DNA from: Bryobacterales bacterium
Lineage (GTDB): Bacteria > Acidobacteriota > Terriglobia > Bryobacterales > Bryobacteraceae
DNA length: 11,319 nt
Direction of reading: 5' to 3'
NCBI GenBank assembly: GCA_003139735.1
Contig: PLGA01000108.1
Location: 6,130-17,448 of the forward strand
This document shows positions 2,730-5,910 of this stretch, piece after piece. Positions within the stretch are counted from its first letter, which is position 1. Each line of letters opens with the position of its first letter. A model generated the notes under the pieces. The model saw nothing but the letters and a program-made list of their open reading frames with translations, was not told where the DNA came from and did not search any database. Both the position numbers and the translations under genes were made by a program.

Positions 2730-2753
2730 TTTTCGTTTCTCCTTGCCCATTAA

Positions 2754-2779
2754 GACCGGCGATTTGGCGGGAATGTTTC
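2754..2779 (-). promoter_or_regulatory. ECF-type promoter for the DUF6249-like gene
   Basis: On the minus strand, GAAAC (2779-2775) is followed by exactly 16 nt and then CGGTCTTAA (2758-2750). This fits the general ECF pattern of a G(G/A)AAC -35 and a CGTC/GTCTAA-like -10. Transcription would start near 2747, giving a leader of about 18 nt that carries the AAGGAG site. The -35 is one half of a 14-nt palindrome shared with the opposite promoter. Confidence 0.65.
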
Positions 2780-2786
2780 GAAACAT
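2773..2786. promoter_or_regulatory. 14-nt palindrome supplying both -35 elements
   Basis: ATGTTTCGAAACAT is a perfect inverted repeat in the middle of the 87-bp gap between the two divergent genes. Each half supplies a GAAAC -35 element for one direction, and the two are back to back with no bases between them. It could also be an operator for a dimeric regulator, but the matching CGGTCT at equal distance on both sides favours the promoter reading. Confidence 0.65.
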
Positions 2787-2808
2787 CGGCGCGATCCGTG
2801 CGGTCTAA
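2780..2808 (+). promoter_or_regulatory. ECF-type promoter for the sigma/anti-sigma operon
   Basis: GAAAC (2780-2784), 16 nt, then CGGTCTAA (2801-2808). This mirrors the minus-strand promoter in sequence and spacing and implies that the sigma factor activates its own gene. The expected transcription start, about 2811-2814, is only a few bases before the ATG at 2817. The mRNA would be leaderless or nearly so, which fits the absence of a ribosome-binding site. Confidence 0.65.
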
Positions 2809-2816
2809 ATAGATCT

Positions 2817-3326
2817 ATGGAGGAAGAGTTCGAGCGGATTGTCCGCGAATATCGGGACAAGATCTTCCGCCTCGCCTTTTCCATGCTGGGAGACCGGGCC
2901 GCCGCGGAGGAAGCGGCGCAGGACGCGCTGGTGCGGGTGTGGAAAGGACTGGCCGGCTTCCGCTCCGAATCGTCGCTTTCCACCTGGATCTATAGCATCA
3001 CCCGGAACGCCTGCCTGACGGCGCTTGCCCGCGGCCGCCTGCGCACCGCGTCGCTCGAAGATCCGGCCCCCCGCCGCGAGGTGGAACGGCGCGCCACCGC
3101 CGGCTGGTTCGCGGCTGCGCCTCCGGATGCGGCCGCGCTTCTCGACCGGCTGCCGGCCAAGTACCGGCAGGTGGTGGCGCTTTTCTACATGCAGGAAAGA
3201 TCGTACGATGAGGTAGCGAGTATGCTCGGCCTGCCTGTGGGCACGGTGAAGACATACCTGTTTCGCGCCCGGAAAAGCCTGGCGGAAGAGATGGCAAGCG
3301 AGCGCGTCCGGAAAGGAGGGGCGTAA
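2817..3326 (+). CDS. ECF RNA polymerase sigma factor
   Basis: This is an alternative sigma-70 factor of the ECF group, which directs RNA polymerase to stress-type promoters. The 169-residue product has region 2 at about 5-72, with AEEAAQDALVRVWKGL (30-45) and STWIYSITRNACL (55-67). A linker follows (73-103), then region 4 with LPAKYRQVVALFYMQ (112-126) and the helix-turn-helix SYDEVASMLGLPVGTVKTYL (129-148). There is no extra C-terminal domain. The ATG at 2817 lacks a ribosome-binding site and lies inside a short palindrome (ATAGATCTAT, 2809-2818); near-leaderless translation is likely. The stop overlaps the anti-sigma start by one base (TAATG), so the two are translationally coupled. Autoregulation is inferred from the upstream promoter. 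Confidence 0.95.
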   Translation: MEEEFERIVREYRDKIFRLAFSMLGDRAAAEEAAQDALVRVWKGLAGFRSESSLSTWIYSITRNACLTALARGRLRTASLEDPAPRREVERRATAGWFAAAPPDAAALLDRLPAKYRQVVALFYMQERSYDEVASMLGLPVGTVKTYLFRARKSLAEEMASERVRKGGA

Positions 3327-3646
3327 TGGCCTGCCCGGATTTCGAAGACCTGGTACGCGGCGGCGCCGGCGATCACGCCGCGCACTGCGAGGCGTGCCGC
3401 GCGCTGCTCGACGCGCTGGCCGATGTGGATGCCACGTTCGACGCGGCGTTCGCGGGCATCTCCGCGCCGCCCAGCCTGGCTGCGGAAGTGCGCGCTCGTG
3501 TGGCACGGGAATTTCCCTTGCGGCGGCCGTCGCTGCTGCCGGAGGTGCTGGATTTCATCGGCTGGGCGGCGGTGTTCGCCTTGGCGGCGATTCTGCTGCC
3601 CCGTTTCCTGCCGCTGCTGAACGCAGCGATAGCCAGCCTGAGCTAG
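3326..3646 (+). CDS. Zinc-finger anti-sigma factor, membrane-anchored
   Basis: This is the likely anti-sigma partner of the preceding ECF factor, holding it at the membrane until a signal arrives. The 106-residue product opens MACPDFEDLV and has the ZAS zinc motif H-x3-C-x2-C at His17, Cys21 and Cys24. A helical linker follows, then one hydrophobic segment at about 77-97. Only some nine residues follow that segment, so there is almost no periplasmic sensor part. Signal sensing would have to come from the membrane segment, the zinc site (Cys3 may be a fourth ligand) or another protein, of which the divergent DUF6249-like protein is a candidate. The start is fixed by GGAGGG a few bases upstream of the ATG and by the TAATG overlap. 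Confidence 0.88.
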   Translation: MACPDFEDLVRGGAGDHAAHCEACRALLDALADVDATFDAAFAGISAPPSLAAEVRARVAREFPLRRPSLLPEVLDFIGWAAVFALAAILLPRFLPLLNAAIASLS

Positions 3647-3651
3647 TTCTT

Positions 3652-3756
3652 TTGTGGGGCAGCTTGCCAAGCTGCGCGCGGCCCAGTGGGCACCCCGGCC
3701 AATCGGCGCACGTGGCGGTTAACAACCGCCACGCAGGATGGCATCCTGCCCCACAA
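3652..3756. repeat. Palindromic intergenic element B (convergent hairpin pair)
   Basis: The element lies between the convergent anti-sigma and cytochrome b genes. It is bounded by an 11-bp inverted repeat, TTGTGGGGCAG (3652-3662) and its complement (3746-3756). Each end carries a hairpin: GCAGCTT-GCC-AAGCTGC on the left, and, read on the minus strand, GCAGGAT-GCC-ATCCTGC on the right. The loops are identical, but the inner three stem pairs are completely exchanged with pairing kept. Between them is a perfect 10-bp hairpin, CGTGGCGGTT-AAC-AACCGCCACG (3711-3733). Its GTGGCGGTT also occurs next to element A. A further GTGGGG head on the minus strand (3762-3767) abuts the cytochrome b stop codon. 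It may act as a two-way transcription barrier or mRNA 3' end. Confidence 0.78.
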
Positions 3757-3766
3757 GCGCGCCCCA

Positions 3767-5404
3767 CTACTCCGGCAGCGCAAACAAATACGTCGTCAGA
3801 TTGTCCAGATCCTTGGGCGAGAACTTGAAGGGCGGCATCATGCTGCCGGGCGAGAGCTTGGCGGGATCGGCGAAGTGCTGCTCCACCCAACTGCGGCTGC
3901 GGCGCTTGGAAAGTCCGTTGAGTGCGGGGCCAAAGCTCGATCCCATGCCGTTCACCTTGTGGCAGGAGCCGCAATCGTTGGCCTGGTAGACGAGCGCGCC
4001 CTGGGTGGCGAAATCGGGCGCGTCCTGAAGCGAGGTGGCGTTACGGGGATTCAGCCTCAGCAGGAAGGCCGCCAGCGAGTTCAACTGCGCGTCGCTGAGC
4101 CGGATGGCAGGCATGGAAGTGCCTGGGCGCACCAGTCCCGGCTGCTTGAAATGATGGATCATCCATGCGGCGTCCCGGTGAATCGAGGTTAGGGTGAGAT
4201 CCGGACCCAGCTTCGAGCCGCCCTCGCCAACGGCGTGGCAGGCGACGCAGTTCTCCTGGCGGAAATAGGCAATGCCGGCCAATTCTTCCGGCGACAGTTG
4301 CATCCAATCGGTCGGGCCGGAGTAATCGATCTCGGCCGCCGGCGCCGGGGCAGGCTTGGTGGCGACGGCCATGGCCGTCAATCCCGTCCAACCGATGGCC
4401 GCCAGCGCGACAAACGCCATGGCCGTGGTGCGGCGGGTGACTTTCAGCATCTTGCCGCGGTCGATGAAGGGGACCAGAATCAGCGCCATCACCGCCAGAC
4501 CCGGCAACACCACGCTGCCGACCACCTCGAGCGGCCCGGTCATCAGCTTCAAGGTTTGGAACAGGAACAGAAAATACCATTCGGGACGCGGGATATACGT
4601 GGTGTCGGAAGGGTCGGCCAGTTGCTCGAGCGGGACCCGCACGGCCACCGCCATGGTAAACAGAACCGCGAACGCGATGAAAATGGCGATGGTGTCGCGG
4701 AAAACCTGGCCCGGGTAGAACTGCTTCTTCGGCAGCATCTCATCCCCCGGCACGGGCGTCACGCCGTGTTTGCGAACCAGAAAGACATGCAGGGCGATCA
4801 GCGCAAGCGTCAGCGGCGGCAGCACGATCACGTGCATGACGAAGAAGCGCGTGAAGGTGACCACCCCAACGGCGCCGCCTCCGCCGAGCAGCCGCGAAAG
4901 ATAAGGCCCCAGGATGGGCGCCGATCCGGCGATTTGGGTCACCACCACGGTCCCCCAGTACGCCCGGTTGTCCCACGGAAGCAGGTATCCGGTCATCCCG
5001 TATCCCAGAGTCACGAGCAGCAATACCACGCCGGCCATCCAGGTGGCCTCGCGCGGCTTCTTATAAGCGCCGTAGAGGAACACCTGGATCAGGTGCAGCG
5101 CCACCACCACGATCATCATGCTGGCGCCCCAGTGGTGCAGACCGCGTATCAGGCGGCCGCCCGTGAGATCGGTCAGGATGTAGCGCAGGCTGTTATAGGC
5201 CTCGCCGGGGGTGGGCGCGTAATTGATGGCCAGCAGCACGCCGGTGAACGCCTGTACCAGGAACAGGAACACGGCCACGCTGCCGAACGCCTGGCGCCAG
5301 CCGCTCGATGCGGGGATCTCTTCGGCGAGGAAGTGGCGCAGGGCGGTTTGGACCCCGGTGCGCTGGTCCAGCCACTCGGCGACTCCTTCCCAGTCGGGTT
5401 TCAC
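3767..5404 (-). CDS. Cytochrome b fused to a diheme cytochrome c
   Basis: This is the quinol-oxidising core of a bc/b6f-type complex, moving electrons from quinol through two b hemes and probably out through its own c hemes. The 545-residue product joins three parts. A b6-like part (about 35-212) has heme ligands His90 and His104, then His191 and His206. A subunit-IV-like part (about 230-350) has the Qo motif PEWY (274-277). Two c-type domains carry C386-VA-CH and C478-GS-CH, with likely Met ligands at 431 and 522/523. The 14 residues between His191 and His206 match b6, not mitochondrial b (13). Leu47 replaces the cysteine that binds heme c-n in b6f. Seven membrane helices would put the c domains in the periplasm. 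The start is GTG in a GTGA overlap with the Rieske stop. Confidence 0.92.
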   Translation of the reverse strand: MKPDWEGVAEWLDQRTGVQTALRHFLAEEIPASSGWRQAFGSVAVFLFLVQAFTGVLLAINYAPTPGEAYNSLRYILTDLTGGRLIRGLHHWGASMMIVVVALHLIQVFLYGAYKKPREATWMAGVVLLLVTLGYGMTGYLLPWDNRAYWGTVVVTQIAGSAPILGPYLSRLLGGGGAVGVVTFTRFFVMHVIVLPPLTLALIALHVFLVRKHGVTPVPGDEMLPKKQFYPGQVFRDTIAIFIAFAVLFTMAVAVRVPLEQLADPSDTTYIPRPEWYFLFLFQTLKLMTGPLEVVGSVVLPGLAVMALILVPFIDRGKMLKVTRRTTAMAFVALAAIGWTGLTAMAVATKPAPAPAAEIDYSGPTDWMQLSPEELAGIAYFRQENCVACHAVGEGGSKLGPDLTLTSIHRDAAWMIHHFKQPGLVRPGTSMPAIRLSDAQLNSLAAFLLRLNPRNATSLQDAPDFATQGALVYQANDCGSCHKVNGMGSSFGPALNGLSKRRSRSWVEQHFADPAKLSPGSMMPPFKFSPKDLDNLTTYLFALPE

Positions 5405-5910
5405 GCCGGGCTCCCGGAGGACGGGCGCAGGCCGCCGAGCAGCAGCTTACCGCCCTCGATCCTGGTTTCGAAACGATCGAGGCTGCGCGGCGCCGGTCCG
5501 GAGAGGACCTTGCCATCGAGCGAGAACACCGAGTTGTGGCAAGGGCAGACGAATTCGTCCTTGCTCTCCTCCCAATGGTAAGCGCACCCCAAATGGGTGC
5601 ATTGAGGGCCGAACGCGGTCACGCTCCGGTCGGGATTCTTCACCACCCAGGCCGTGCCCTTCTCGCTGACCACCTTCCACCCATCGACGCGGTTGCGCCG
5701 GAACACCATCTCCACGGGCTGATTGGGCGCGAGACTGGCCACGTCGCCGGCCTCCACCCATTGGCTGTTCTGGCGGGACTTGGGCGAAGAAAACAGGTAG
5801 ACCAGAGCGGGCGCGCTCAATGCCGCGCCGATGATTCCGCCGATGGCATAGATGGCGCCGATATAGAACCGGCGGCGCGTCGGTCCTTCCAGCTCAGGCG
5901 ATTGGGACAC
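5401..5910 (-). CDS. Rieske iron-sulfur protein of a bc/b6f-type complex
   Basis: It takes the first electron from quinol at the Qo site through a [2Fe-2S] cluster. The 169-residue product has both cluster boxes. CTHLGC supplies Cys104 and His106 plus disulfide Cys109. CPCHNSVF supplies Cys122 and His125 plus disulfide Cys124. A conserved SGPAPRSL stretch follows (137-144). The N-terminus has TRRRFYIGA (11-19) and a hydrophobic segment to about 40, a twin-arginine signal-anchor as expected for a Rieske protein exported folded. It is the first gene of the operon and overlaps the cytochrome b-cc gene by 4 nt. The start is GTG at 5910; the nearest purine-rich site, GAGGGG, is about 12 nt away, so the start is probable but not certain. 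The 111-bp gap upstream must hold the operon promoter, but I see no convincing hexamers there. Confidence 0.95.
   Translation of the reverse strand: MSQSPELEGPTRRRFYIGAIYAIGGIIGAALSAPALVYLFSSPKSRQNSQWVEAGDVASLAPNQPVEMVFRRNRVDGWKVVSEKGTAWVVKNPDRSVTAFGPQCTHLGCAYHWEESKDEFVCPCHNSVFSLDGKVLSGPAPRSLDRFETRIEGGKLLLGGLRPSSGSPA

Follow-up and report, generated by a model that had tools for sequence, protein, structure and literature searches.

Mirrored ECF promoters between a sigma factor operon and a divergent DUF6249-like gene recur across related loci, with promoter arms that covary with residues of the sigma factor

Introduction

ECF (group IV) sigma factors are short proteins, of about 170-200 amino acids, that contain sigma regions 2 and 4. 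Autoregulated operons of an ECF sigma factor and its anti-sigma factor are known, for example those of sigmaE and sigmaW, and a zinc-binding anti-sigma factor is recognized by an HxxxCxxC motif and a transmembrane (TM) segment in a protein encoded downstream of the sigma gene. In general terms, ECF promoters that are autoregulated or divergent belong to a familiar type, and ECF sigma factors are mentioned together with divergent or bidirectional promoters in the literature, as for HrpL in Pseudomonas syringae.

Bidirectional promoters in a stricter sense, as described by Warman et al. (PMC12825309), share a -10 element, the commonest distance between their start sites being 18 bp; the class is defined there by start sites that lie on either side of, or within, the shared -10, and separate divergent promoters are not counted as bidirectional.

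The stretch of DNA analysed here, hereafter the window, is 11,319 nucleotides of a contig from a Bryobacterales genome (a MAG with 661 contigs, 5.28 Mb in total and 82% completeness). The original prediction placed, between an ECF sigma gene and a divergent membrane-protein gene, a two-way ECF promoter built on one palindrome. We compared this gap with those of related loci in several sets of genomes, considering gene order, the distance between the two promoter arms and the residues of the sigma factor.

Methods

Profile A1, applied to 237 genomes of the same family, gave 19 genomes with a clear orthologue (at least 192 bits, the next match scoring 152). Further sets comprised 396 genomes drawn from the phylum, the class of genome G385 (149 and then 193 genomes), the class of genome G320 (119 genomes) and the order (257 genomes), genomes overlapping between some sets. 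A 'gamma set', the order of genome G874 (396 genomes, of which 60 matched at E<=1e-42), was reached via the G874 locus L037, whose contig is titled Gammaproteobacteria; a LexA-like protein among the neighbours of L037 fits that title. Loci were sorted by the position of the DUF6249-like gene, using a profile built in this analysis, and L101, whose DUF6249 match lies far downstream, was grouped with loci lacking one. Distinct-locus counts leave out repeats of one place, L258 (its sigma factor is identical to that of L242) and L216 (too little upstream sequence).

Results

Paired promoters in the window

The 14-nt palindrome ATGTTTCGAAACAT at 2773-2786 consists of two abutting -35 elements, one GAAACAT per strand. 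The plus promoter, which faces the sigma gene, occupies 2780-2808, with the -35 GAAAC at 2780-2784, a 16-nt spacer and the -10 CGGTCTAA at 2801-2808; the minus promoter, facing the DUF6249-like gene, occupies 2750-2779 on the opposite strand, with GAAAC at 2779-2775, again 16 nt, and the -10 CGGTCTTAA at 2758-2750. GAAAC-N16-CGGTCT spans 2780-2806 on the plus strand and 2779-2753 on the minus strand, CGGTCT lying at 2801-2806 and 2758-2753 respectively, exactly as the original prediction had described. Its further claim, that two such matches are unlikely by chance, held as well: GAAACN{15,18}CGGTCT occurs twice in the window, against a mean of 0.04 over 200 shuffles of it, only one of which reached two matches. 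Scored with a matrix trained without the window's clade, the plus arm reached 20.0 and the weaker minus arm 18.7. An Rfam scan of the window returned no match, and a search of plasmid records with the gap (2700-2860) found no copies.

The flanking genes

The plus-strand gene at 2817-3326 encodes a protein of 169 amino acids with Sigma70_r2 (63.7 bits) and Sigma70_r4_2 (63.1 bits), which scores 95.1 bits against TIGR02937 sigma70-ECF (cut-off 42.9) and has the composition and length of an ECF (group IV) sigma factor; it carries T146 in the region 4 helix and R49 in the region 2 loop. Because its ATG lies only 8 nt after the -10, as judged against typical ECF start distances, the sigma mRNA is probably leaderless. 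The sigma side of L065, L008 and L072 resembles this short layout from -10 to ATG, and the DUF6249 side of the window has a Shine-Dalgarno-like leader.

The adjoining gene at 3326-3646, also on the plus strand, encodes a probable membrane anti-sigma factor of 106 amino acids, in which HAAHCEAC (HxxxCxxC) and one hydropathy-predicted TM segment are the sequence features of a zinc-binding anti-sigma factor, the binding of zinc and of sigma being putative. A Pfam search with this product gave no match and NF052375 was matched weakly (21.2 bits against a cut-off of 100). Over the 93 loci for which arms were tabulated (see below), the downstream ORF has HxxxCxxC in 43, a TM-bearing ORF is present in 83, and no ORF was found in 6.

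On the minus strand, 2247-2729 encodes a membrane protein of 160 amino acids with three hydropathy-predicted TM segments and the signature HxERMxAxEKG (given also as HxERMAAIEKG) after TM1; its structural model is all helical (mean pLDDT 90.5, pTM 0.65). We call it 'DUF6249-like' because its score against PF19762, 28.8 bits, is under the gathering cut-off of 33 and so falls short of family membership, yet all 33 of 33 aligned relatives, the window's copy included, match that family at E<=0.01. The most likely start of this gene is the ATG at 2729, since the upstream alternatives, at 2750 and 2786, respectively overlap the minus -10 and precede it; a putative Shine-Dalgarno-like AAGGAG lies at 2739-2744 on the same strand.

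Two inverted repeats with 25-nt arms containing GTGGGGCAG/CTGCCCCAC, at 2149-2224 and 3652-3756, flank the module and resemble a dispersed intergenic repeat. Beyond them, as read from translations, a minus-strand ORF (3767-5404) fuses a cytochrome b-like region to a C-terminal region bearing two CxxCH motifs, and is adjoined by a Rieske-like gene (5401-5910).

The mirrored pair follows the divergent gene order

A mirrored promoter pair was found in 92 of 96 distinct loci in which the DUF6249-like gene is divergent, in none of 15 in which it is co-directional, and in one of 76 with no such gene found nearby, the matrices behind these scores having taken their seed words from the window's clade and part of their training from the very loci being scored, with leave-one-out in 23 loci only. 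The exception without a DUF6249-like gene is L176, where the match starts 187 nt from the beginning of the contig. Two of the divergent misses, L202 and L211, yielded no pair, and a third, L254, scored 9.6, below the cut-off of 10. The fourth, L013, is a start-site artefact, its match already beginning ahead of the promoter; L013 and L071 are one place, positive under the latter name, so that the corrected count is 93 (L071/L013 is absent from the 93 rows of the arm counts that follow). Shuffled controls gave 0 of 935 at the cut-off of 10 and 2 of 935 at 8, and in the leave-one-out comparison each of the first 23 loci beat its own 60 shuffles.

The pair was fitted in all 18 loci of a second clade, and in the gamma set it was present in 53 of 58 readable loci, against 0 of 560 shuffles. 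Among 90 other ECF upstream regions only L083 and L090 scored at least 10; both have a divergent, weakly matching DUF6249-like gene (E about 1e-5) and they sit together on a long branch on the window's side of the sigma tree. Six of the seven matches from the class of G320 (L135-L140) had no mirror pair. The same mirrored pair appears to recur in related loci of two phyla, the second being represented through the contig titled Gammaproteobacteria. The original prediction would have been undone by orthologous gaps that did not keep the GAAAC and CGGTCT blocks; the promoter blocks are kept.

The arms stand at variable distances

The two arms are separated by 0-128 bp over the 93 loci, with gaps of at most 6 bp in 10 loci, of 10-34 in 71 and of at least 38 in 12. 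Abutting arms occur in four loci only, the window, L007 (=L065), L008 and L072, which together form the window's four-member clade. At any gap each arm holds 16-17 nt between -35 and -10 (one arm of one locus has 14), and the window's own -35 word, GAAACAT, also serves as -35 in relatives with separated arms such as L066, L069 and L010. The palindrome ATGTTTCGAAACAT arises because two of these extended -35 elements touch head to head. The base before GNAAC is consistent with this: it is T in 160 of 178 arms at gaps above 0 and C in 8 of 8 arms at gap 0, in which the base is fixed by the arm facing it. What is conserved is not the palindrome, since the arms lie 0-128 bp apart and touch in one clade only; on the sequence evidence the palindrome is the tight end of a series of gaps rather than a founding element common to all, and the phrase 'built on one palindrome' does not extend beyond these four loci as a general description.

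The same measurements bear on two other explanations of the gap. A palindrome midway in a divergent gap has the classical form of an operator, and the perfect 14-nt palindrome of the window, in just that position, might be read as the binding site of a dimeric transcription factor, with the promoters being something else. We regard this as highly improbable, since the half-sites abut in 4 of 93 loci, elsewhere stand as much as 128 bp from each other, each still 16-17 nt from its own -10, and have letters that follow the recognition helix of the sigma factor (see below). A competitive switch, in which abutting -35 elements admit one polymerase and the sigma and DUF6249 transcripts are mutually exclusive, is unlikely as the general arrangement. 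Steric exclusion would be plausible where the -35 elements touch, at gap 0, and exclusion is described for shared -10 promoters of E. coli by Warman et al. (PMC12825309); against it, gaps of 10-34 bp (71 loci) or 38-128 bp (12 loci) are the common state, and with only 10 of 93 loci at 6 bp or less exclusion is not a conserved feature. The polymerase competition proposed in the original prediction is accordingly not supported as a general consequence and is at most a feature of the tight forms; it may operate within the window's gap-0 clade.

Among the first 41 loci many gaps lay at 0, 10-12, 21-24 and 31-34, with others at 3, 14, 15, 18, 25, 26 and 38. Helical phasing as a strict rule was rejected when the gamma set filled 17-20 and 27-29. 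Periods near 10.5 gave R values of 0.55 in the window's phylum and 0.36 in the gamma set (top periods 5.25 and 10.5); R at 10.5 falls to 0.26 without gaps above 60, and with distinct gaps counted once the naive p values were 0.16 and 0.03. Path-disjoint contrasts (27 pairs) gave V 0.27 with a naive p of 0.024, and restriction to differences of at most 40 (23 pairs) gave p 0.07, or 0.014 against a jitter null. At most, these distances hint at a bias towards whole helical turns.

Both arms track residues of the sigma factor

The two arms of a locus are alike in each of three respects. Their -35 elements are of the same class in 90 of 93 loci (GAAAC/GAAAC in 69, GCAAC/GCAAC in 21, mixed or odd in 3), a count favoured to some degree by the use of one matrix for both arms of a locus; their spacers are equal in 86 (16/16 in 57, 17/17 in 29, unequal in 7); and the -10 base after GT is the same in 89 (C in both arms in 45, A in both in 44, other in 4).

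These letters vary with the protein. All 70 loci whose plus arm has A as the second -35 base carry T at residue 146; where that base is C (23 loci), residue 146 is A in 12, S in 5, N in 5 and T in one, this last being L237, which has mixed arms and a GAAAC minus arm. L071 (=L013) has S146 and likewise mixed arms, GAAAC on plus and GCAAC on minus, and these two loci with unlike arms are possible intermediates of a specificity switch. For the -10, the 45 loci with a GTA-type plus arm carry D (44) or N (one) at residue 49, and the 47 with a GTC-type plus arm include 33 with R and 4 with D; in the one remaining locus the plus-arm base is T. When columns 146, 49 and 51 are left out of the tree, the -35 state changes four times for the plus arm and three times for the minus arm, as against 3-4 changes for residue 146 and about 21 when the -35 labels are shuffled; each arm switches its -10 state five times, and residue 49 (scored as D/N or not) changes twice. 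The independent switches are few; those of residue 146 and the -35 coincide well, and the link between residue 49 and the -10 is looser.

The loci with a co-directional DUF6249-like gene upstream of the ECF gene (L015, L018, L019, L087, L088, L089, L091, L092, L095, L103, L104, L110, L119, L225 and L231) were not used in matrix training, and some are close relatives of each other. Their best one-way site upstream of the DUF6249-like gene has GCAAC in 12 of 13 loci where residue 146 is S or A (L015 has GCCAC); the two loci that combine T146 with D49 both show GAAAC together with GTATCA. No more than 5 of the 15 sites exceed the best of 40 shuffles, and that of L089 scores below zero. Since the matrices favour GCAAC and GAAAC words, the weight of this comparison lies in the choice of A or C. 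With a one-way candidate promoter before the DUF6249-like gene, these loci are perhaps a one-way form of the same module.

A conserved promoter precedes the sigma gene, and its -35 and -10 covary with the sigma factor's own residues, as would fit autoregulation. Conservation in the divergent loci and covariation of the arms with residues 146 and 49 lend good support to the central proposal of the original prediction, that of two full ECF promoters, one per strand, for this sigma factor. The sigma factor might conceivably read one arm only, with the other arm serving another sigma factor of similar specificity, and the genome does encode further ECF sigma factors (a search of G000 with this one gave 21 matches, counting its own gene). 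This is very unlikely given that the arms belong to one class in 90 of 93 loci for the -35 and 89 of 93 for the -10, both tracking the residues of this sigma factor.

Search for a wider regulon

Scans covered close consensus forms in the window's own genome (the 82% complete MAG) and its three nearest gap-0 relatives. GAAACN16CGGTCT occurs at five places in the own genome, two of which are the arms, against three for a reversed control; the remaining matches, L001, L002 and L003, showed no convincing promoter setting on inspection. GAAACN{17,18}GGTCTNA gave 15 matches over the four genomes, 7 of them arms, leaving 8 others against 12 in the control. A scan with spacers of 16-17 returned the two arms plus L182 and L183 in the own genome; the three relatives, where spacers are mostly longer, gave no match. 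Beyond the arms, close consensus matches in these four genomes showed no excess over control, and the regulon which the original prediction had hoped to read from such a scan did not emerge. A self-contained circuit is the simplest reading; weaker or degenerate targets may be present.

Discussion

Given a conserved divergent pair with arms that track residues 146 and 49, the gap is very probably the sigma factor's own two-way autoregulatory promoter, through which the DUF6249-like gene would be induced together with the sigma/anti-sigma operon. Under this mechanism the ECF sigma factor, once freed by the membrane anti-sigma factor, would bring polymerase to two mirror-image promoters; from the plus arm it would transcribe the sigma/anti-sigma operon as feedback, and from the minus arm the DUF6249-like membrane protein, so that both sides would be induced together. 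The DUF6249-like protein might in turn feed into the sensing or damping of an envelope signal. Transcription from both arms, the anti-sigma function, co-induction and this role in signalling are all proposed from the arrangement and content of the loci.

A more ambitious reading would make this a phylum-crossing and nearly closed sigma/anti-sigma/DUF6249 module in which promoters and DNA-reading residues change in lockstep and the distance between arms prefers whole helical turns, holding the bound polymerases at a set relative face, with the window as the zero-turn state. We consider this reading, taken as a whole, unlikely.

Through the comparison, what began as a single unusual palindrome becomes a conserved regulatory layout of which about 93 natural cases are available. 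The loci suggest that DNA recognition in this ECF group follows a readable code, in which residue 146 corresponds to the second -35 base and residue 49 to the -10 base after GT, and, with two copies of the presumed sigma target per locus, they lend themselves to testing predictions of ECF specificity made from sequence. A further outcome is a tie between DUF6249, a family of unknown function, and ECF signalling. In the open-access literature searched, we did not find a conserved mirrored module with a visible specificity code; no open-access paper was found to contain both 'ECF sigma' and 'DUF6249', and DUF6249 alone led there to plant-kinase work only.

Several described systems share parts of this layout. 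Operons of the sigmaE and sigmaW type likewise consist of an ECF sigma gene that is preceded by a promoter of its own class and followed by a membrane anti-sigma candidate; they differ in that here a second, mirror promoter faces a divergent DUF6249-like gene and the arrangement recurs across two phyla. The best match among solved structures in a sequence search was Bacillus subtilis sigmaW (PDB 5wuq), whose residues aligned with 146 and 49 are T and D, and the sigmaW consensus, TGAAAC / CGTA, fits the residue-to-base code of these loci. In contrast to sigmaW, which is a global stress regulator, the sigma factor of the window showed no wider regulon in the close-consensus scans of four genomes. 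The promoters of Warman et al. (PMC12825309) resemble the window in supporting divergent transcription from a short pseudo-symmetric stretch, and differ from it in that the window has its -35 elements inside and its -10 elements outside; with separate outer -10 elements at 2750-2758 and 2801-2808, the window lies outside the bidirectional class as defined there and is instead a pair of divergent promoters set back to back.
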